A DNA stretch of 32,546 nt from an uncultured Dorea sp. (lineage in GTDB: Bacteria > Bacillota > Clostridia > Lachnospirales > Lachnospiraceae). The notes under the pieces were generated by a model that made no database searches, was not told the origin of the DNA, and worked only from the letters and a program-made list of their open reading frames with translations. Shown here in pieces: positions 11,977-21,311 of this stretch (within the stretch, counting starts at the first letter, position 1; each line of letters starts with the position of its first letter). The stretch is taken from NCBI GenBank assembly GCA_947388185.1, contig CANDQP010000028.1, positions 1 to 32,546 on the forward strand, written 5' to 3'. The position numbers were made by a program, and so were the translations under genes.

Positions 11977-12576
11977 TTAACCTTCCTCAACTGCACGCAG
12001 CGACTCCAGGAACGGATTCAGGAGTTCCTGCCCGTACTGCAGGAGAGAATAATGTCCCTGCTGCAGACACCAGTTATAGGTGAGCCCGATCTGAAAACTT
12101 GCGATCATATCCGTCAGGACCGGATAAGAATGCACAGAAACGATCTCTCCCGCTTCGCTTCCTTCCTTAAGGAGCTGCCGGAGAATCTGATAATAACGCC
12201 TGTCAGGATTCAGTATATGGCGCACTCCCTCTGTCATGACCTGCAACCCATACAGCGACGGATAAAAAGAATGGAAAGGAGATTCCTCCACCGCACGCAT
12301 CACATAACCGTTGAACGAGATCAGATTATCGACCGTATGCTTCTCTTTATCGTAATATTCCTGCAGCCAGATATCATAATCATTATCGTAAGTATAAGCG
12401 ACCGTAAACAGCAGCTCCTCTTTCCCATGAAAATGATGATAGAATACGCTGCGCGAAGTACCTGATTTTGCAATGATCTGCGAGATCGTGGTTTCTTCAT
12501 ATCCGTTATCCTGAAATAATTCCCACGCAGCCGACATAATCTTTTCTTTTGTTTTCTTTTTATATGGTCCTCTCAT
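11977..12576 (-). CDS. TetR/AcrR family transcriptional regulator
   Basis: This 199-residue protein has an N-terminal TetR DNA-binding domain: KKKTKEKIMSAAWELFQDNGYEETTISQIIAKSGTSRSVFYHHFHGKEELL, about residues 6-57, with the helix-turn-helix at TISQIIAKSGTSRSVFYHHF. The C-terminal helical domain would bind a ligand and dimerise; its ligand is not readable. It stands alone on the minus strand, divergent from the toxin-antitoxin pair. No transporter gene, a common TetR target, is adjacent. A near-palindrome just upstream may be its own operator. Confidence 0.93.
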   Translation of the reverse strand: MRGPYKKKTKEKIMSAAWELFQDNGYEETTISQIIAKSGTSRSVFYHHFHGKEELLFTVAYTYDNDYDIWLQEYYDKEKHTVDNLISFNGYVMRAVEESPFHSFYPSLYGLQVMTEGVRHILNPDRRYYQILRQLLKEGSEAGEIVSVHSYPVLTDMIASFQIGLTYNWCLQQGHYSLLQYGQELLNPFLESLRAVEEG

Positions 12577-12597
12577 GGAAATCCCCGCTTTCTGTAA

Positions 12598-12612
12598 TTA
12601 TCATAATCATAA
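12598..12612. promoter_or_regulatory. Near-palindromic 15-bp site, candidate TetR operator
   Basis: TTATCATAATCATAA pairs at 6 of 7 symmetric positions and lies 22 bp upstream of the TetR gene start, where an autoregulatory operator is expected. The region is AT-rich, so chance is possible. Confidence 0.35.
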
Positions 12613-12631
12613 CATAATCCGCCGCCCGCAT

Positions 12632-12660
12632 CAAGATGGCCGCAGATTGTATACTAAATT
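12632..12660 (+). repeat. Left copy of imperfect 29-bp direct repeat flanking the toxin-antitoxin module
   Basis: The segment starts CAAGATGGCCGCAG and ends ACTAAATT. It matches 13412-13440 at 25 of 29 positions in the same orientation. It lies upstream of the antitoxin promoter. Confidence 0.8.
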
Positions 12661-12672
12661 GGTGCAAATAAC

Positions 12673-12691
12673 GTTCTTTTTCATGCAGAAC
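12673..12691. promoter_or_regulatory. Inverted repeat upstream of toxin-antitoxin promoter, candidate operator
   Basis: GTTCT (12673-12677) and AGAAC (12687-12691) form a 5-bp inverted repeat with a 9-nt centre, just upstream of the -35. GTGCAAATA also occurs twice nearby (from 12662 and 12704). RelB/DinJ-type antitoxins usually repress their own operon from such sites. Confidence 0.4.
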
Positions 12692-12692
12692 A

Positions 12693-12721
12693 TTGTGTTT
12701 TTCGTGCAAATATCATATACT
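12693..12721 (+). promoter_or_regulatory. Promoter of the toxin-antitoxin operon
   Basis: TTGTGT (12693-12698) and TATACT (12716-12721) are separated by 17 bp, 31 bp before the antitoxin ATG. An overlapping TATAAT at 12721-12726 is an alternative -10. Confidence 0.6.
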
Positions 12722-12751
12722 ATAATCACTAGCATGAAAGGAGATGGTTAT

Positions 12752-13030
12752 ATGGCTGGCTCTACCACGAATATCAGCATCCGCATAGATTCGGATTTGA
12801 AAGCGCAGGCCGATGCCATGTTCGGAGAACTCGGCATGAACCTGTCCACAGCGTTCAATATCTTTGTCCGCCAGTCGCTTCGTGAGGGCAGGATTCCTTT
12901 TGACATTTCTTTGAATCAGCCCAACAAGGAAACAATTGCCGCCATGTTGGAAGCGGAAAGGATTGCGAAAGATCCGTCTGTAAAAGGATATACCGATCTG
13001 GATGAACTGTTCGCAGACCTGAAATCATGA
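12752..13030 (+). CDS. RelB/DinJ family type II antitoxin
   Basis: This 92-residue protein begins with a ribbon-helix-helix domain (TTNISIRIDSDLKAQADAMFGELGMNLSTAFNIFVRQSLREGRIPFDI), typical of DinJ antitoxins. Its acidic C-terminal tail (KGYTDLDELFADLKS) is the part expected to wrap the toxin. The start at 12752 is chosen because AAGGAG lies 8 bp upstream; the in-frame ATG at 12734 overlaps that site. The stop overlaps the toxin start (ATGA), the usual coupling that keeps antitoxin in excess. The complex probably represses the promoter at 12693-12721. Confidence 0.93.
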   Translation: MAGSTTNISIRIDSDLKAQADAMFGELGMNLSTAFNIFVRQSLREGRIPFDISLNQPNKETIAAMLEAERIAKDPSVKGYTDLDELFADLKS

Positions 13031-13314
13031 GGAAAACAAAATATACTGTTAAGCTCACCACGCAATTTAAAAAAGATTACAAACTGGCAATGAAGCGTGG
13101 ATTAAAAATCGAGCTGTTAGAGGATGTGGTTTCTGCTCTTGCTATGGGCAAACCGCTCCCAGAAAAGAACAAAGATCACGCCCTGTCTGGGAATTGGGCA
13201 GGACACCGTGAGTGTCATATCCTCCCGGATTGGCTGCTGATCTACCGCATTGAGAATGATGTACTGGTGCTGACATTAGCCCGCACGGGAACACACAGCA
13301 ACTTATTTGGGTAA
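13027..13314 (+). CDS. yafQ: YafQ family mRNA interferase toxin
   Basis: This 95-residue protein of the RelE/ParE superfamily matches YafQ closely in its second half: DHALSGNWAGHRECHILPDWLLIYR and ARTGTHSNLFG. Residues corresponding to the E. coli YafQ active site (His50, His63, Asp67, His87) are present as His51, His64, Asp68 and His90, so the toxin looks intact. YafQ cleaves mRNA in the ribosomal A site. The start overlaps the antitoxin stop by four bases. Confidence 0.94.
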   Translation: MRKTKYTVKLTTQFKKDYKLAMKRGLKIELLEDVVSALAMGKPLPEKNKDHALSGNWAGHRECHILPDWLLIYRIENDVLVLTLARTGTHSNLFG

Positions 13315-13365: not shown

Positions 13366-13411
13366 ATTTCTGTGCGGCCTGCTTTTGGGACTGCCATTTC
13401 TTCAGCACGAC

Positions 13412-13440
13412 CAAGGCGGCCGCAAATTGTACACTAAATT
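13412..13440 (+). repeat. Right copy of imperfect 29-bp direct repeat flanking the toxin-antitoxin module
   Basis: It matches 12632-12660 at 25 of 29 positions, same orientation, 780 bp apart. Here it lies just upstream of the promoter of the peptidase operon. Confidence 0.8.
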
Positions 13441-13463
13441 CAACACAAATTTCAATATATATA

Positions 13464-13493
13464 TTGACTATAACACAGTATCTTTGATAAAAT
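13464..13493 (+). promoter_or_regulatory. Promoter of the peptidase / 5-oxoproline operon
   Basis: TTGACT (13464-13469) and TAAAAT (13488-13493) are spaced by 18 bp. The predicted transcript start near 13500 leaves a leader of about 63 nt before the ATG at 13564. No operator or riboswitch was recognised in it. Confidence 0.65.
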
Positions 13494-13563
13494 TTTAATA
13501 ATATATGCTAATTAAGAACGCAGTACGGAATTAAGTTTAAATTTAACATTGGAGGCATTTATT

Positions 13564-16500
13564 ATGAAACAATTAAGAATGGACGGCATTCTGACCGAAA
13601 CCAGGAAAAGATATGCCGTTGAAGCTGCCTTGCTGCTTGGATTCCAGACAGAATCCGCAGTATTTCCGATAGCGGGACCTGACGGTGAGATCCCCATCCC
13701 GGAATCAGACGAAGAGCTCCTGTCTCTATGGCGCCTGAGCGGAGCCGATATGCCGGACGGATATACCCCGGCACAGGCAGAGGGGCCGGTCTTTGAATTG
13801 GATTTCCGTAAGAGACACGGGCTTGAATACCTTTTTTCCAGAGGATTCTTCCTTAAGGACGAGAATCATGACCTGCTGCCCGACCGATTGGATGTCAAAC
13901 TCCTCCTCCCGGAAGACGCAGATACCGCAATGCTCACGGCTGCCTGCAATCTGGCGTTCCGTTTCGGCATGGAGACGACCGCTTTCGAGGGCAGTATCCT
14001 GGCGCCGGAAGGCTATGAAGGGAATGCCGTGATCTTCGAGTACGCCGAGCAGGAGGAACTGGTGCTTCAGGAGCTTCCCCAAGCCGTACATGTGCACATC
14101 AGGGGCAACGGCCAGAAGCTTCTGGAATTCTCGAACCTGATCTGCGAGAGATTCCCTGTCACCAACGCTTTTCAGAGCTGGCGCGATGTCCTGATGGATA
14201 TGACGGATGATTTTGCACTCAGAGGAGCAGACGGACAGCTTGCCTATCTTAAGGCCTGTATGGACAAGGAGCCCGAAGGCTCTCTGACGGAGTACACCTT
14301 ATACGGAGCGCCTGAGATCACCGAAGAACAGAAGGCACATTTCCCCGAAGGCAGTATTCAGGACCATAAAGCAGGCAAGAAGGTCTGGGAGCACAATTTC
14401 GATCTGCCCTGGGAGGCAGACACCTTCGAGCAGATCATTAAGGAAGAGATCATCCCGACTCTTCACACCGGCGATATCGTCCGGATCGAAGGAGCCCTCA
14501 GCGAAGACCCTGAGACGCGGGAAGCCATTGCAGACCGTATCCGCGAGGCATTCAAGCCCACAGGCGCCGACCTTAAGAGCATTCAACTTATCTGCGCTTA
14601 CAAGCAGGGGTATTCATGGATAGACGAGGCGGTAATCCCGGCCGTATGCCCTGGTACAACCCAAGATTCGCGCGATACAGCGCCTATGAAAGCCGAGATC
14701 TACTTCAAGCCGTTTCTCCCGGAAGGCGAAACTGTCTGGCTTGACGAGAACGGAGCGACACCTTCTTACCATAATCTGAAGGCTGATGATCCTGACAAAT
14801 GGTACGATCTTCCGATCCGTTATCTTCAGGAATTGTATCCTATTCAGGATAAACTGACAGAGAAGCTGGGTCTTACGCAGGACGATATTCTCTTCCACGC
14901 TTATGAGGGTGCCGAGGAATTGACCTATCTGTGCAGAATTACCATGCAGGATGGAACATGCCGGGAGTTCCGGTATCTGGCGAGATATTCCGAGCGTCCG
15001 TACCTTGACGAATACCCGCAGATGGGGAAGGTTCATCCCAGCACCGGTTATATCCAGGTATGGGTGAACGAAGAAGAACGGCTGAACCGCAGAATATCCA
15101 CCGATCTGGAACAGATCTGGGATATCTACCAGGGACAGATCCTTCCTCTGTGCCGTAATTATATAGAAGAGAAGACGAAAGGTGCTGTAACTTCCGACAT
15201 GCAGCCTTTCTTCCAGAAGCTTTTGCTGGAGGTATGGGCAAGCGAACCGGATTACAGAACCGGAAGCCGGGAAGACCTGATATCCTCTCTGGATGCACTC
15301 CATGAGGATATGTATTTCGTGGGCAGCGATTATTTCAAGAACTACGGCTTACAGAAGTCAGATCAGATCTTCGATGCTCCCGGGCTGATCCTTCCCAAGA
15401 TACACAAGCGCGAAGGAGCTCCCGCATTCCGGGCTGTGCTCTATGAGCGTCAGCAGGAAGAGGCCTGTATTATCCGCAGTCAGAAGACGGACGCCGGCAG
15501 CGGGACGATCGCCGTACAGCAGCTGCGAAGGGATCAGATAGACCTTCGCATCACACGGATCTGTCCAAGAGACGGACGCCTCGTATTGGAGATCCCTGTA
15601 ACCGAGGTTTCCTCAGATGTAACGGCTGCCTATGCACAGCTATTTTCGGAAGGAAGACTGAACATAAGCGGCAAGATCGCGGACTGCTATATCCTTAAGT
15701 TCCTTGCCGCAGACGGAGCAGCTTACGAAGCATCCGCGCCGCAGACAGCAGCGCTTCCCAGGAAACAGATCACTGATATCGACCTTCATGAAAATGAACT
15801 GATCGGATATGACACCTGCCTTGAGATCCTCGAAGAGCTCAGATGCGTACAAGGGCTTGAAGTCTTTGAGAACGCTCACTCTTACCAGGGACGCAGGCTC
15901 TACGGGATCTGGCTGAAACCAGAATACGAAGGATATCTGTCTATGACAAAACGGCTGTCAAGATGTCCAAGCGAGATCATCAACGCCAGACATCATGCCA
16001 ACGAGGTTTCCAGTACGAACGCCGCATTTATACTATTGAAGAGATTACTGACGGAAGTTATCTACAGGGACCTTCCCCGGAAGCTGAATCTGGTTCTGGT
16101 TCCCATGGAGAATACCGACGGCACTGCTATCCATTACGAACTCCAGAAGGAACATCCTTACTGGAAGTTCCATGTGGCAAGATTCAACGCGGTCGGAAAG
16201 GAATTCTATTATGACCATTTCCGTCAGGATACCATACATGCCGAAGCAATGGGGCTTACACGGCTCTTTGAAAAATATATACCGGATATGATCGTAGACA
16301 ACCACGGAGTACCGAGCCACGAGTGGGAGCAGCAGTTCTCAGGCTACACTTCTCCCTCTTACAAGGGCTTCTGGCTGCCGAGATCTCTGCTCTACGGATA
16401 CTTCTGGTATGTAACGGGTGAACAGTACCGTTCGAATTACTCCGTCAATAAAGTGATGGAAGATGTGATTGCAGACGAGATTGCCGCGGATGAAGAGATG

Positions 16501-16884
16501 ACACGGTGGAACCAGGATTGGAGCGCACAGTTTGAGAAGTATGCGCATGCCTGGATGCCGAAGCTGTTTCCCGCGGATTACTATAAGAATATGATCAATT
16601 ACTGGATACCTTTCGCCTTTGATCCGGCACACCGGTATCCATCCATCCGCTTCCCCTGGATCACTACGGTGGCATATACCAGCGAAGTGGCGGATGAGAC
16701 CGCGCAGGGTGAATATCTGAACCTGTGCGCAAGGGCACACGCGGCACACGACGAAGCAACCATCCGAATGCTGATGGCTGCAAAGCATATACATACCTGC
16801 CGGTGCGAGTGCCGGGACGGACAGATCTTTACCGAATACTCACGTCTGAGACCTATGATCGTGAACAATTCGGAGCAAAGATAG
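13564..16884 (+). CDS. Large M14-like zinc metallopeptidase (1106 residues, cytoplasmic)
   Basis: The start at 13564 follows GGAGG by 8 bp; an in-frame ATG at 13549 overlaps that site. The C-terminal third carries a metallocarboxypeptidase-like signature. RHHANEVSS gives the HxxE zinc pair His811-Glu814. VDNHGVPSHEW gives a third ligand, probably His914. VAYTSEVAD offers Glu1041 as the catalytic glutamate. The first 780 residues have no recognised domain; they include acidic stretches and repeated alpha/beta-like segments. No signal peptide or membrane helix is present, so it should act on peptides inside the cell. It heads a five-gene run with DUF969/DUF979 transporter subunits, an M29 aminopeptidase and Pcp. 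The M14 assignment rests on motif order only; the substrate is unknown. Confidence 0.82.
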   Translation: MKQLRMDGILTETRKRYAVEAALLLGFQTESAVFPIAGPDGEIPIPESDEELLSLWRLSGADMPDGYTPAQAEGPVFELDFRKRHGLEYLFSRGFFLKDENHDLLPDRLDVKLLLPEDADTAMLTAACNLAFRFGMETTAFEGSILAPEGYEGNAVIFEYAEQEELVLQELPQAVHVHIRGNGQKLLEFSNLICERFPVTNAFQSWRDVLMDMTDDFALRGADGQLAYLKACMDKEPEGSLTEYTLYGAPEITEEQKAHFPEGSIQDHKAGKKVWEHNFDLPWEADTFEQIIKEEIIPTLHTGDIVRIEGALSEDPETREAIADRIREAFKPTGADLKSIQLICAYKQGYSWIDEAVIPAVCPGTTQDSRDTAPMKAEIYFKPFLPEGETVWLDENGATPSYHNLKADDPDKWYDLPIRYLQELYPIQDKLTEKLGLTQDDILFHAYEGAEELTYLCRITMQDGTCREFRYLARYSERPYLDEYPQMGKVHPSTGYIQVWVNEEERLNRRISTDLEQIWDIYQGQILPLCRNYIEEKTKGAVTSDMQPFFQKLLLEVWASEPDYRTGSREDLISSLDALHEDMYFVGSDYFKNYGLQKSDQIFDAPGLILPKIHKREGAPAFRAVLYERQQEEACIIRSQKTDAGSGTIAVQQLRRDQIDLRITRICPRDGRLVLEIPVTEVSSDVTAAYAQLFSEGRLNISGKIADCYILKFLAADGAAYEASAPQTAALPRKQITDIDLHENELIGYDTCLEILEELRCVQGLEVFENAHSYQGRRLYGIWLKPEYEGYLSMTKRLSRCPSEIINARHHANEVSSTNAAFILLKRLLTEVIYRDLPRKLNLVLVPMENTDGTAIHYELQKEHPYWKFHVARFNAVGKEFYYDHFRQDTIHAEAMGLTRLFEKYIPDMIVDNHGVPSHEWEQQFSGYTSPSYKGFWLPRSLLYGYFWYVTGEQYRSNYSVNKVMEDVIADEIAADEEMTRWNQDWSAQFEKYAHAWMPKLFPADYYKNMINYWIPFAFDPAHRYPSIRFPWITTVAYTSEVADETAQGEYLNLCARAHAAHDEATIRMLMAAKHIHTCRCECRDGQIFTEYSRLRPMIVNNSEQR

Positions 16885-16922
16885 ATACTATTAACACATT
16901 TCACTAAAAGGAGGAGAAGTAA

Positions 16923-17603
16923 ATGGAACTAATTAAACTGGTTGGCGTTCTGATCGTAATCGTCGGGTTTGCATTGAAGCTGGATTCAATCCTGATCATT
17001 TTCCTGGCGCTTATCACAACAGGACTTGTAGGGGGACTTGGCATTGACGGCTTGTTGGAAGCAATCGGAACGAATTTTGTCGCAAACAGAAGTATGGCGA
17101 TCTTCATCATGATCCTTTTGATCACAGGTGTTCTGGAACGTAACGGGCTGAGAGAGGCAGCGACAGACCTGATCAAGAAGGTCAAAGGCGCAACCGCCGG
17201 CAAGGTTATCTGCGCATACGGTGTTATGCGAGGAATCTTCGGCGCATTCAACGTCGGCTTCGGCGGTGTTGCCGGATTCGTACGTCCGGTCGTACTCCCG
17301 ATGGCAGAAGCAGCCGTCAAAAATCAGGGCCATGAGGCGGCTGAAGAGCATGTGGAAGACATCAAAGGTATGGCATCCGCAATGGAGAACATTACATGGT
17401 TCTTCTTCCAGGTATTATTCGTCGGCGGATCCGGCGGTATCCTGGTGCAGAGCACACTGGCTTCCCTGGGCTATGAGGTCGAACTGATCGAGCTTGCGGC
17501 GGCAGAGATCCCGGTAGCGATCGTTGCATTGATCTCCGGCTGTGCCGTTACGCTGCTGAATGACAAGAAACTGACAAACAGATATTACAAAGATACGAAG
17601 TAG
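16923..17603 (+). CDS. DUF969 family subunit of a putative 5-oxoproline transporter
   Basis: This 226-residue polytopic membrane protein opens with LIKLVGVLIVIVGFALKLDSILIIFLALITTGLVGGLGIDGLLEAIG, a pattern I recognise as DUF969. It has about five to six hydrophobic segments and a conserved-looking loop, GVMRGIFGAFNVGFGGVAGFVRPVVLPMAEAA. DUF969 and DUF979 occur as a pair and have been linked to 5-oxoproline uptake by gene context with oxoprolinase or Pcp genes. AAAGGAGG precedes the start, 38 bp after the peptidase gene. The DUF979 gene follows after 12 bp. Confidence 0.88.
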   Translation: MELIKLVGVLIVIVGFALKLDSILIIFLALITTGLVGGLGIDGLLEAIGTNFVANRSMAIFIMILLITGVLERNGLREAATDLIKKVKGATAGKVICAYGVMRGIFGAFNVGFGGVAGFVRPVVLPMAEAAVKNQGHEAAEEHVEDIKGMASAMENITWFFFQVLFVGGSGGILVQSTLASLGYEVELIELAAAEIPVAIVALISGCAVTLLNDKKLTNRYYKDTK

Positions 17604-17615
17604 GAGGTGCTTAGA

Positions 17616-18569
17616 ATGGCTGATTTGAAATTTATACAGATAAATGAAGTATTAGGCACGAATCTGCTGAACACGGTATGGGTCATCGTAGGTTTGATCG
17701 CTATCTATGCAGGAATTAAGAATCTGATGGATGAACAGAATCCTTCCAGGATCGGAACCGCCTTATTCTGGTGCTCTTTCGGAGTCGTATGCGCATTCGG
17801 CACCTGGCTTCCCGCGAAGATCTCCGGCGCCCTGGTTATCATCATGTGTCTGCCGCCGATCTTCAAGAAGGTAAAAGTCGGCAAAGCAGATACACCGACC
17901 AAGGAACACACCATAGAACAGTATCAGAAGGTCGGAATGAAGATCTTCTTCCCGGCGGTCTGCGTAGGCTTATTCTCACTGGTGTTCGCGTTTTTCAGTA
18001 ATCTGAGCTCTATGGTTGCAGTCACGATTGGTGTTATCATTGCCATGATCATCCTGATGCTCTACAATCCTTCTGAAAATAAGCCAAAGGTATTCCTTAA
18101 GGAATCCGAGAGATTTCTTTCCATTATGGGTCCGTTATGTATGCTCCCGCAGCTTCTCGGCTGTCTCGGAGGTGTATTCACGGCAGCAGGCGTTGGGGAT
18201 GTCGTTGCCAGCATTGTGGAGAAGATCGTTCCGAAGGGAAATGTCAATGTCGGCATCATCGTATTCGCGATCGGTATGGCAATATTTACCATGATCATGG
18301 GTAACGCATTCGCCGCCATCACAGTAATCACCGTAGGTATCGGCGGTCCTTTCGTTCTGGCATACGGCGCCGATCCGATCACCATCGGTATGCTGGCGCT
18401 GACCTGCGGTTACTGCGGTACCTTATGTACGCCTATGGCAGCTAATTTCAACATCGTTCCTGTAGCTATCCTGAACATGAAAGACCGTTGGGGAGTTATC
18501 AAGAATCAGGTGATCGTAGCTGGAATCATGCTGACATTCCAGATCTGCTACATGATCATATTCAAGTAA
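17616..18569 (+). CDS. DUF979 family subunit of a putative 5-oxoproline transporter
   Basis: This 317-residue membrane protein has about eight hydrophobic segments and DUF979-like motifs, including LFWCSFGVVCAFGTWLPAKISGALVI and TCGYCGTLCTPMAANFNIVPVAIL. The ATG at 17616 is chosen because AGGAGG lies 8 bp upstream; the in-frame GTG at 17607 overlaps that site. It should form one transporter with the DUF969 partner. Context with pyroglutamyl-peptidase supports movement of 5-oxoproline or a related compound. Direction (import or export) cannot be told from sequence. Confidence 0.88.
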   Translation: MADLKFIQINEVLGTNLLNTVWVIVGLIAIYAGIKNLMDEQNPSRIGTALFWCSFGVVCAFGTWLPAKISGALVIIMCLPPIFKKVKVGKADTPTKEHTIEQYQKVGMKIFFPAVCVGLFSLVFAFFSNLSSMVAVTIGVIIAMIILMLYNPSENKPKVFLKESERFLSIMGPLCMLPQLLGCLGGVFTAAGVGDVVASIVEKIVPKGNVNVGIIVFAIGMAIFTMIMGNAFAAITVITVGIGGPFVLAYGADPITIGMLALTCGYCGTLCTPMAANFNIVPVAILNMKDRWGVIKNQVIVAGIMLTFQICYMIIFK

Positions 18570-18621
18570 ACAGTGTCCGGCAGGCACCATAAACTAATCG
18601 ATAACAAAGGATGTGGAAAAA

Positions 18622-19611
18622 ATGTCGCAAAATATAGAACGCGGCGCCAAAATCGTGATAGAACATTGGATGCGTGTAAGACGTTGGGACAAGCTGCTTA
18701 TCGTCACAACGAAAGAACATCTGGAAGAATTAAGAGTCCTTAAGGAATTCGCAGCAAAGCGGACACGGTCAGTAAGCTCTCTGGTCGTAGAAGACACCGG
18801 AAGGCATGTGGGAGTCTTTTTTGACATGAATGAAGAAGTCTTTGACCCCTATACGGCAATCATTGCCGCGACAGATTACTCTCTCGTAACGACAAAAGCC
18901 GCAAAACGGGCGCTTCAAAAGCACAGGAAATTCCTGTCGCTGCCCTTATCTACCAACGACGGACGTTCCATGCTGGAGTATGATTTCATGACTATGGATA
19001 CAAAGAAGAGCCGGCTTATGGCTAACGTGATCATGAAATATCTGCGCCACTGTACCACGATTCATGTAACAACGCCTGCCGGAACAGACCTGCACATATA
19101 CAAAGCAAACCGGATCCCGGGATTCTTTAACGGTGTAACCAAGGATGGAAAGGGATATTCTTCCGCCAGCATTGAAGTCTACGTCTCTATTGAAGAGACA
19201 AAGACGGAAGGCACCATGGTCCTGGATGGATCTCTTGGGTACATCGGACGTGCAGAAGAACCGACGAAGATCCTGTTCAAAGACGGTCGTATCACCTGGA
19301 TCGAAGATACCCTCACCGGCGTCAGGCTCCAGCAGTATATGGAGGATTATAATGATTCCCGCATCTATATAGGCGGCGAGTTCGGAATCGGCCTGAATTC
19401 CTATTCCAAGTGCCTCGGCAACTGCTATATTGAAGATGAATCCGCATACGGGACATTTCACATCGGGCTGGGAAGGAATCTGGCCCTTGGCGGGCGGCAG
19501 AATGCCAACGGACATTTTGATCTGGTTTGCCTGGAACCGGATATCTACACAGATAACCGGCAGATCATGCAGCAAGGCAAGATCATCATCCCGGAACCCG
19601 TAGTATATTAA
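18622..19611 (+). CDS. M29-type aminopeptidase (AmpS/aminopeptidase T-like)
   Basis: This 329-residue protein follows the shorter M29 layout. An N-terminal alpha/beta domain (GAKIVIEHWMRVRRWDKLLIVTT) is followed by VTTPAGTDLHIY and the metal-site motifs ASIEVYVS, GGEFGIGLN, GTFHIGLGRN and NGHFD. The glutamates and histidines expected to bind the metal pair are all present. It probably removes N-terminal residues from peptides in the cytoplasm. The ATG at 18622 is preferred, with AAAGGA 10 bp upstream; a GTG at 18613 is possible. It sits between the DUF979 gene (52 bp gap) and pcp (13 bp gap), so it would act with Pcp once the pyroglutamyl cap is removed. Confidence 0.82.
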   Translation: MSQNIERGAKIVIEHWMRVRRWDKLLIVTTKEHLEELRVLKEFAAKRTRSVSSLVVEDTGRHVGVFFDMNEEVFDPYTAIIAATDYSLVTTKAAKRALQKHRKFLSLPLSTNDGRSMLEYDFMTMDTKKSRLMANVIMKYLRHCTTIHVTTPAGTDLHIYKANRIPGFFNGVTKDGKGYSSASIEVYVSIEETKTEGTMVLDGSLGYIGRAEEPTKILFKDGRITWIEDTLTGVRLQQYMEDYNDSRIYIGGEFGIGLNSYSKCLGNCYIEDESAYGTFHIGLGRNLALGGRQNANGHFDLVCLEPDIYTDNRQIMQQGKIIIPEPVVY

Positions 19612-19624
19612 GGAGGAATTAACT

Positions 19625-20269
19625 ATGAAGATATTAGTGACAGGATTCGACCCATTCGGGGGCGAAGCCGTGAATCCGGCATTCGAAGCAGTAAAGATGC
19701 TTCCTGACAACATCGCAGGAGCAGAAGTGATCAAACTTGAGATCCCGACCGTATTCTCCAAGAGCGGCCCGGCAGTTGAAGAAGGCATCAAGAAGTATCA
19801 GCCGGACGCAGTCATCAACGTGGGACAGGCAGGCGGAAGATCCTGCGTTACGATTGAACAGGTAGCGATCAATCTGGCCGAGGCCCGTATCCCGGATAAC
19901 GACGGAGAACAGCCGTCAGGCGAGCCGCTGCAGGCAGACGGCGCTCCCGCATATTACGCAACGATCCCTGTCAAAGCGATCGTTCAGAATATCCGCGACC
20001 ACAAGATTCCCTGCCATATCTCATACACGGCTGGAACCTATGTGTGCAACAGCATCATGTACAATGTCCTTCACATGACCGCGACCAAATATCCAGACAT
20101 CCGTGCAGGATTCATCCATGTGCCGTTTGCTGCAGAGCAGGTAGTAAGCAAACCGAACGGAACACCGTTCATGTCTCTTGAAATGATCGCCAAATGCCTG
20201 GAATACGCAGTAGAGGCAACCGTGAAGAATTTCGCAGATATTGACGGTTCTTTTGGAGAAACACATTAG
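19625..20269 (+). CDS. pcp: Pyroglutamyl-peptidase I
   Basis: This 214-residue cysteine peptidase has the usual length for C15 enzymes and opens with MKILVTGFDPFGGEAVNPA. The triad is intact: Glu78 in TIEQVAINLA, Cys141 in SYTAGTYVCN and His165 in AGFIHVPF. It removes N-terminal 5-oxoproline (pyroglutamate) from peptides in the cytoplasm. GGAGG lies 8 bp upstream. It is the last gene of the operon and is followed directly by a strong terminator. Confidence 0.97.
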   Translation: MKILVTGFDPFGGEAVNPAFEAVKMLPDNIAGAEVIKLEIPTVFSKSGPAVEEGIKKYQPDAVINVGQAGGRSCVTIEQVAINLAEARIPDNDGEQPSGEPLQADGAPAYYATIPVKAIVQNIRDHKIPCHISYTAGTYVCNSIMYNVLHMTATKYPDIRAGFIHVPFAAEQVVSKPNGTPFMSLEMIAKCLEYAVEATVKNFADIDGSFGETH

Positions 20270-20280
20270 ACAACAAGACA

Positions 20281-20328
20281 GGGGCTGCCGGAGAATGTTC
20301 TTATCAGACATTATCTCCCGGCAGCCCC
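20281..20328. terminator. Bidirectional terminator after pcp
   Basis: GGGGCTGCCGG (20281-20291) pairs perfectly with CCGGCAGCCCC (20318-20328), and the inner sequences extend the stem with small bulges. TTATTCTATT follows on the plus strand. It separates the plus-strand peptidase operon from the minus-strand hydrolase gene. Confidence 0.88.
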
Positions 20329-20378
20329 TTATTCTATTCATACATCTAAAACTTACTTACACTATCACACACGCCGTA

Positions 20379-21311
20379 TCAGCCCTGCAGCTTCAGGCAG
20401 CGATCACACCAGCGAAGCAGATCCTTGTACACGTCCTCTCTCTTCGTCTCGTTCAGGATCTCATGTCTTAGTCCGGCGTACAGCTTCACGGCAGTCCTGC
20501 ACCCTGCTTTCTTATAGCGCTTATACACCTTCCTCACATTCTTACCAAACGCCCCCACCGGATCATCTGCCCCGGCAGTAAATAATACAGGTAGATCCTT
20601 CGGAATCTTCGCCATACTCTCCCTGCGGTTCAGGGTCTTCATCCCCTCAAACATCTGGTAATACCCTCCAAGCGTAAAACGGAACATACATAACGGATCA
20701 CCCACGTACTTCTGCTGATGCTCTTCATCCGAAGTGACCCACTCCCTTCCGGTCTTACTTGGTTCAAATCTCTTGTTAAAACTTCCGAAGCTCAGATTAT
20801 CCACGAACTTACTGCGGTATCTCCATCCCTTGAACAGCGCGGTCACACGGCAGATCATCTGCCCCGCCATAAGAACCGGCAACGGCTGATAGCCGGTCCC
20901 CATGATGATCACACCCGAGAGCCCTTCCCCATACACCGTCAGATACTGACGCATCAGAAAAGATCCCATACTATGCCCCATCATCATATACGGCACACCC
21001 GGATACTTCCTGGCAGTGATCACTCTCAACTGCTGAATATCACCGATCACACACCGGTTCCCGTTATCCTCAGGGAAGTATCCATAATCCGCTTCGTCTG
21101 TGACCGACTTGCCATGGCCCAAATGGTCATGGCCCACCACATAATATCCGTATCCGCACATATACTCGGCAAATTCATGGTAACGCTCAATATACTCTAC
21201 CATACCGTGGCAGATCTGAAGCACTCCTCTGACCTCGCCGTCCGGCAGCCATTCCACGGCATGGATCTGCGTCTTCCCGTCCCTCGACAAATAATAAAAC
21301 TCTTCTTTCAT
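20379..21311 (-). CDS. Alpha/beta hydrolase, monoacylglycerol-lipase-like (serine aminopeptidase S33 fold)
   Basis: This 310-residue hydrolase has the nucleophile elbow MGHSMGS with Ser114, the acid Asp250 in AGADDPVG and His283 in GLRHEILNE, so the triad is complete. The segment ICHGMVEYIERYHEFAEYM and VVGHDHLGHGKS are typical of bacterial lysophospholipase or monoglyceride lipase relatives. The ATG at 21311 is chosen because it lies one base after the citrate synthase stop; a longer frame from 21389 would overlap that gene by 77 bp. GGAGA inside the end of the citrate synthase gene is a likely ribosome site. There is no signal peptide. Confidence 0.9.
   Translation of the reverse strand: MKEEFYYLSRDGKTQIHAVEWLPDGEVRGVLQICHGMVEYIERYHEFAEYMCGYGYYVVGHDHLGHGKSVTDEADYGYFPEDNGNRCVIGDIQQLRVITARKYPGVPYMMMGHSMGSFLMRQYLTVYGEGLSGVIIMGTGYQPLPVLMAGQMICRVTALFKGWRYRSKFVDNLSFGSFNKRFEPSKTGREWVTSDEEHQQKYVGDPLCMFRFTLGGYYQMFEGMKTLNRRESMAKIPKDLPVLFTAGADDPVGAFGKNVRKVYKRYKKAGCRTAVKLYAGLRHEILNETKREDVYKDLLRWCDRCLKLQG

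Follow-up and report, generated by a model that had tools for sequence, protein, structure and literature searches.

What is the use of a gene cluster in which a very large peptidase-like gene is followed by the two halves of a transporter and by two further genes of peptidase type? The question is raised by the stretch of DNA analysed here, 32,546 nucleotides from an uncultured Dorea sp. (contig CANDQP010000028.1 of assembly GCA_947388185.1; hereafter the window), in which five open frames follow one another on the forward strand: a gene for an M14-like zinc metallopeptidase (13564..16884), the genes for half-transporters of the DUF969 (16923..17603) and DUF979 (17616..18569) families, a gene for a hydrolase of the M29/NicX superfamily (18622..19611), and pcp, the gene for the C15 enzyme pyroglutamyl-peptidase I (19625..20269). 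An original prediction, made from the letters alone, had listed five such genes with gaps of 38, 12, 52 and 13 bp, and the open frames agree with it. The reading that we prefer, and to which we give a probability of roughly one half, is that the operon is a TetR-flanked set for the cytosolic breakdown of pyroglutamyl-capped peptides, with the DUF969/DUF979 pair carrying 5-oxoproline.

Recurrence of the five-gene order

We scanned bacterial genome contigs with the M14 protein as seed, a search that is biased to close relatives and not exhaustive, and obtained 40 loci, which make 41 M14-bearing loci when the window is included. Mapping of the five proteins placed them in the order M14-DUF969-DUF979-M29-pcp at 32 of the 41, spanning six families, with Coprococcus comes, Sellimonas and Dorea among the carriers; three of the 32 (L022, L039, L040) are trimmed at a contig end and yet show all five genes. 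The five genes are also together, in permuted order, at L033, where M14 lies between M29 and pcp, which brings the count to 33 of 41. Given this recurrence a chance neighbourhood was rejected, and the search of genomes for this order, which the original prediction had itself suggested, thus runs counter to the outcome it had named as fatal, namely that the genes would seldom occur together beyond this strain. The notion of the M14 gene as a single-strain oddity was likewise rejected, by homologues at other loci and on plasmids. Among the remaining loci, the operon is interrupted by a contig end at L008, L014, L018 and L030, and L006 holds M14 by itself, with DUF969-DUF979-M29-pcp on a different contig of that genome (L082). 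Genome-wide, a close M29-like protein (E <1e-100) is present in 37 of the 41 M14-bearing genomes, with distant kin only in one more, and Pcp in 38. In a separate set of 61 relatives the M14 protein was found in 10, and within the same genus in 9 of 12, one of these nine genes having an internal stop. At L019 (7107-8747), one of the 32, from a Tissierellia metagenome-assembled genome (MAG), DUF969 and DUF979 form a single frame of 547 aa, either a natural fusion or the result of a lost stop.

There are signs that the M14 gene belongs functionally to the operon: it evolves under purifying selection (dN/dS 0.12 against L002 and 0.13 against L020), it keeps the promoter-element arrangement, as do the other genes, where the operon is split in the L006/L082 genome, and it appears to have been replaced at L033. 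In that locus M14 groups with a Mogibacterium/Faecalicatena clade (SH-aLRT 100) and DUF979, M29 and Pcp with a Dorea-like clade, in trees of the further operon proteins that omit L022, L039 and L040; a foreign M14 copy seems to have taken a new position inside the same operon.

The enzymes and the carrier

The M14 protein has 1106 aa, with the catalytic part at about residues 740-1106. It scores 32.2 bits against PF00246 (cut-off 21.6), a match that spans only positions 17-113 of the 286 in the profile; the same profile is hit at E <=0.1 by 26 of 26 aligned long members, among which every other Pfam family hits one at most. The residues of H811xNE814, H914 and E1041 are invariant in the alignment, as is R873, and the three signature motifs HxNE, HGxPxHEW and ExxDET occur in 41 of 41 M14 frames. 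We take the HxxE and the later His to be zinc ligands and the late Glu to be catalytic, as in other M14 enzymes. With MpaA and the carboxypeptidases of family M14 the window subfamily shares the HxxE zinc motif, an NxDG-like stretch, the third His and the late Glu, but it has an HGxPxHEW and ExxDET-like signature of its own, a long N-terminal part without any Pfam family, and no recognisable Asn-Arg pair. In M14 enzymes this pair binds the C-terminal carboxylate of the substrate. It is not visible at the expected place, the invariant residue seen instead being R873; this placement comes from weak hhalign comparisons of the domain with single M14 proteins (E 0.0013 and 0.15), used solely to place residues, and the pairing with MpaA (E 0.15) stops short of E1041. 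Sequence searches of solved structures gave no PDB match for the M14 protein. Among 391 genomes of the class its N-terminal part turned up in a single one, the window's own, and so in no second context. The M14-like assignment of the original prediction is thus borne out by PF00246 and the zinc residues, and the giant peptidase that it described is no oddity, belonging as it does to a conserved subfamily that extends over three phyla. An orphan long relative, 38-40% identical, lies at L086 5633-8863 (genome G047) with none of the other operon genes as neighbours; its genome encodes PxpA, a component of the 5-oxoprolinase PxpABC.

The M29-like protein (329 aa) scores 25.6 bits against PF02073, just below the cut-off of 27, and its sole solved relative at E <=0.1 is the 2,5-dihydroxypyridine dioxygenase NicX (7cn3, E 2.3e-13). 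Aligned with three M29 proteins of the class (hhalign E 2e-05), it keeps E253, E273, H280, H298 and D300, presumably the E, E, H, H, D metal ligands of M29 aminopeptidases; the M29 Tyr is not conserved in this alignment. NicX presumably binds iron through His265, His318 and Asp320, positions that hold E253, H298 and D300 here, so that the first of the three iron ligands is a Glu in the window family. The protein is akin in sequence to both groups, and from these residues we read it as a hydrolase and not a dioxygenase. For the label of M29 aminopeptidase this means that the metal ligands speak in its favour, and the Pfam cut-off and the nearest solved structure do not. Pcp scores 250.1 bits against PF01470 and 244.2 against TIGR00504 (cut-off 201.75); in 44 aligned proteins the catalytic Cys and Glu are present in all 44 and the His in 43, the last having a gap.

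Both transporter halves score as members of their families, DUF969 with 243.9 bits (PF06149; 4 strongly hydrophobic stretches) and DUF979 with 359.9 (PF06166; 8 such stretches). By hydropathy these two have membrane stretches, which, like signal-like stretches, are absent from all three enzymes, so the peptides should be cut inside the cell. In published work DUF979 and DUF969 are read as single-repeat members of the ion transporter superfamily, and modelling joins them into a pair with confidence (PMC11467057); a Campylobacter jejuni mutant in cj0552-4 (DUF969, DUF979, DUF2891) showed, in preliminary work, no growth on 5-oxoproline as nitrogen source (PMC12795558). The link between DUF969/DUF979 and 5-oxoproline transport, which the original prediction had taken from gene context, thereby gains preliminary experimental support.

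The pairing of the carrier with Pcp is wider than the operon. DUF979 occurs in 9 of 291 genomes of a class sample, and the eight besides the window's comprise six with DUF969-DUF979-pcp, one with pcp by a partial DUF979 and one with DUF969-DUF979 without pcp. This three-gene cluster of Bacillota, also found on plasmids of Enterococcus faecalis and Melissococcus, has the same order as the window operon, which differs from it by the addition of M14 in front, M29 before pcp and a divergent TetR gene. In a DUF979 tree with the clostridial trios only (L019 and L068 left out), the M14-operon proteins formed an exclusive clade; that claim was dropped when Enterococcus rows were added (ten further near-copies being left out), since E. 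gilvus plasmid pCR1A, which has no M14, falls inside. We accordingly claim one subclade only, apart from the clostridial trios in these trees and with at least one loss or transfer.

On the preferred reading, short peptides would enter the cell through some importer, Pcp would take off the pyroglutamyl cap and release 5-oxoproline, and the M29-like enzyme would trim the remainder from its free N terminus. The M14-like zinc enzyme would act as a carboxypeptidase or dipeptidase on N-blocked peptides, poor Pcp substrates included. Pcp is not known to cleave pGlu-Pro, and N-blocked dipeptides are favoured substrates of M14 carboxypeptidases; taken together with cytosolic cutting, the presence of Pcp and the evidence on the carrier, these specificities make a role in N-capped peptides plausible for M14, though the substrates proposed for it and for the M29-like enzyme are predicted ones. 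DUF969 and DUF979 would together form one 5-oxoproline carrier.

Leader region and candidate regulator

A TetR-family regulator gene (11977..12576, reverse strand; PF00440 56.9 bits) is divergent from the operon. Of the 38 loci whose sequence reaches far enough upstream (all but L023, L039 and L040), 26 have a divergent homologue there (phmmer E <=1e-6 to the window's TetR); the gene belongs to the conserved unit, and the original prediction, which had drawn the boundary of the operon downstream of it, had missed it. Ahead of the M14 gene is the promoter-like site TTGACT-18-TAAAAT (13464..13493, forward strand), which, like two other sites in the promoter scan, matches at 10 of 12 positions and which alone of the three has an extended -10. 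Since 17 promoter-like sites were observed in the region against 9.6 expected, the scan is weak taken alone; comparable -35/-10 pairs precede the operon in relatives. A conserved element, AGAACGNAGTACGGAATTNAGTTT (13515..13538, forward strand), lies at the putative transcript start, and its 16-base core, AACGNAGTACGGAATT (13517-13532), is directly 3' of the -10 box. With at most three mismatches the core was found at 18 of the 26 loci with a TetR neighbour and at 2 of the 12 without one (Fisher p = 0.004, kinship uncorrected), whereas shuffled window sequence gives an expected 0.47 matches per 32.5 kb on both strands. In the genome of the split locus, both units (L006 and L082) begin with the promoter and the element, with 2 and 1 mismatches in the core. 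The element is thus a candidate operator, to which TetR may bind and through which it would switch the operon. A known RNA element at the leader was considered and rejected, a search of 13380-20400 against Rfam giving no match up to E 1.

Downstream of pcp a terminator-like hairpin (20281..20328, forward strand) was read by eye and is absent from the terminator scan output. The original prediction had enclosed the genes between one promoter and one terminator: the promoter site was recovered, with similar boxes in relatives, and the terminator is visible by eye and missed by the scan. The layout suggests that a single transcript may cover all five genes. Between the TetR gene and the operon sits a RelB antitoxin/YafQ toxin pair (12575-13314), which is missing from L002, L003 and L020; a YafQ query gave no match at any other mapped locus. 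Window positions 12660 and 13412 border an insert; set against the empty site of L002 and L003, its two flanks share an overlap of about 29 bases.

Plasmid relatives and the fate of 5-oxoproline

A tblastn search of plasmids with the M14 query gave 40 records, of which six are from Enterococcus (five E. raffinosus, one E. gilvus), whose relatives are full-length and about 48% identical; the other 34, mainly from Deinococcus and Rhizobiaceae, show 23-30% identity, mostly over part of the query. A Deinococcus M14 query returned 47 plasmid records, six of them the Enterococcus long forms. The short relatives have 560-649 aa (10 aligned) and have in common with the long ones HxNE, a P/S-x-D-G/A-like stretch, R873, HGxPxHEW..GY and ExxDET, apart from two short rows in which the P of HGxPxHEW is S and the second E of ExxDET is Q. 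We examined 19 short-form loci, chosen for annotation and spread and not independent of each other within Rhizobiaceae and within Deinococcus. A family-5 type (dipeptide/oligopeptide) ABC transporter stands on the same strand at 15 of the 19, L111 having a divergent binding protein only and L107, L117 and L122 no ABC transporter. Genes of pxp type are present at four: L102, L107 and L108 have PxpA together with its partners, and L122 has broken pieces. At two loci there is a HyuB-type gene (L109, L121) and at four a GntR-type gene (L106, L107, L108, L117). PxpR of Corynebacterium glutamicum is reported to be a GntR-type protein that binds 5-oxoproline and controls pxpTABC (PMC13274462), and the GntR genes of the short-form loci fit with this, GntR being nevertheless a large family. 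At L122 (6971-8587), on a Rhizobium etli plasmid, the short M14 gene is in two frames.

These loci bear on the possibility that the operon serves general peptide scavenging, a broad peptidase set with an incidental tie to pyroglutamate. It draws on the three peptidase-type genes of the operon, on the peptide importers beside the short form (15/19, against 4/19 with pxp-type genes) and on the annotated proline iminopeptidase-family gene near 4 of the 19, and yet the long M14 is usually accompanied by Pcp and DUF969/DUF979, the short form is repeatedly found with pxp genes in two further phyla, and the operon itself is without a peptide importer. We regard this explanation as improbable. The proline iminopeptidase-family genes are on four Deinococcus plasmids (L102-L104, L110); a glutamate-5-semialdehyde dehydrogenase gene lies near the short M14 at L106, and proC with an ornithine cyclodeaminase-family gene at L118. 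There is here a hint of a glutamate/proline tie of the short-form loci.

Two Enterococcus plasmid clusters read glutamate 5-kinase-M14-DUF969-DUF979-pcp, with kinase scores of 220 and 222 bits against a proB cut-off of 186. A kinase-domain-only glutamate 5-kinase heads DUF969-DUF979-pcp on Enterococcus plasmids (L101 8207-8983, L100 7203-7985, L113 4367-5146), with or without M14. The product of glutamate 5-kinase, gamma-glutamyl phosphate, cyclises to 5-oxoproline, and the enzyme may thus make 5-oxoproline here and not use it.

The original prediction had noted the lack of pxpABC in the window, and this extends to the window's genome (G000, 91.6% complete), in which no match to PxpA (PF03746) was found. 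PxpA occurs in 6 of the 41 M14-bearing genomes and in 31 of the 291 of the class sample, and with the window's own genome removed it is not enriched (6/41 vs 31/290, p = 0.43). Among the eight DUF979 genomes without an adjacent M14 it is present in one, in two pieces, and the orphan-M14 genome G047 has one. A HyuB-type protein is found in 6 of the 41, the window's included, so that PxpA or HyuB is present in 11 and neither in 30, many of the 41 being incomplete MAGs. Six pxp stretches of M14-bearing Clostridia (3 to 13 kb) were examined, and none has DUF969/DUF979; PxpABC as an operon partner in Clostridia, tried as a candidate, found no support, PxpA being scarce. The operon and the PxpABC loci have 5-oxoproline metabolism in common and part company in these two respects. 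As only 6 of the 41 genomes have PxpA, the probable fate of 5-oxoproline is export, exchange or consumption by some other enzyme; the lack of a tie to a known oxoprolinase in most hosts favours export or exchange, for instance against the substrate, as the most likely work of DUF969/DUF979. The direction is thus a predicted one, and a reversible carrier could do both export and import.

The same counts bear on two other explanations. According to the first, this is an operon for 5-oxoproline uptake: DUF969/DUF979 would import it, an oxoprolinase elsewhere (PxpABC or HyuAB) would open the ring, Pcp would add to the pool, and M14 and M29 would be general peptidases coming along. The growth on 5-oxoproline lost in the C. 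jejuni mutant, in that preliminary experiment, fits with it, as do the six genomes with PxpA and the genes for HyuA and HyuB that the window's genome carries next to a Na/alanine-type symporter (L099 3480-8848, G000:C124), a pair that keeps an oxoprolinase possible there. Against this stand the mere 11 of 41 genomes with PxpA or HyuB, the absence of PxpA enrichment over the class sample, the six pxp stretches without DUF969/DUF979, and the scores of HyuA and HyuB, which are far under the cut-offs of the matched NCBIfam equivalogs (caprolactamase, acetophenone carboxylase). Uptake in this sense appears unlikely. According to the second, the ring of 5-oxoproline is opened by the M14-like enzyme, with or without M29, or the enzyme acts on a gamma-glutamyl amide, giving an oxoprolinase pathway independent of PxpABC. 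The 30 genomes with neither PxpA nor HyuB, the strongly conserved signature of the subfamily and the kinase of the Enterococcus cluster could be cited for it; near the pxp-type genes at 4 of the 19 short-form loci, however, a second ring-opener would be redundant, and we know of no M14 enzyme that opens the 5-oxoproline lactam. We consider it very improbable.

Breakdown of capped peptides with carriage of 5-oxoproline thus remains our preferred reading, and a number of observations weigh against it. M29 is lacking at two M14 loci (L021, L034) and in both Enterococcus clusters, and at L041 M29-pcp is elsewhere in the genome, far from M14-DUF969-DUF979. Neither M14 nor M29 is next to DUF979 in any of the eight other class genomes, and E. 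gilvus pCR1A has the kinase, DUF969, DUF979 and pcp without either; from the trios and this plasmid it follows that M14 and M29 are not needed in every such cluster. Neither pcp nor DUF969/DUF979 was found at any of the 19 short-form loci. The C. jejuni mutant favours import in that organism, and the HyuAB pair of the window's genome, possibly a hydrolase of 5-oxoproline or of another lactam, could open 5-oxoproline. As to the regulator, 8 of the 26 TetR-bearing loci are without the core at up to three mismatches (L019 and L032 have four, L029 five, and L026-L028, L034 and L038 show no match within five), and the palindrome test of the element is unconvincing, with 8 of 12 at best; as the element is not clearly palindromic, an RNA role is possible.

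One could also speculate, tentatively and with somewhat more doubt than confidence, that the proteins with HxNE, HGxPxHEW and ExxDET constitute an unrecognised M14 subfamily which, in three phyla or more, is devoted to peptides with an N-terminal (pyroglutamyl) cap. The 5-oxoproline set free would then take one of two routes: in anaerobes and enterococci, where PxpABC is scarce, DUF969/DUF979 would transport it, and in Deinococcus and Proteobacteria, where the peptides would come in through an ABC importer, PxpABC would hydrolyse it. The anaerobes would on this view feed on peptides and, by means of the operon, excrete 5-oxoproline as an end product. The subfamily seems to tie peptide uptake to 5-oxoproline enzymes in three phyla, the pcp/DUF969/DUF979 cluster itself being already known. 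Among the matches listed from the open-licence literature, no paper was found that deals with the five-gene operon or links an M14 enzyme to pxp or pcp, and within that literature the five-gene form, the TetR/element pair and the M14 subfamily seem to be new.

The analysis suggests a function for a peptidase subfamily that has no name yet and spans three phyla. The operon is also a strong case on which to test the DUF969/DUF979 carrier, a function that has so far come, in the sources consulted, from gene context, modelling and one preliminary growth test. Pyroglutamate caps shield many food and host peptides from ordinary aminopeptidases. An operon that deals with such peptides in gut anaerobes would indicate where 5-oxoproline is produced or consumed in the gut.

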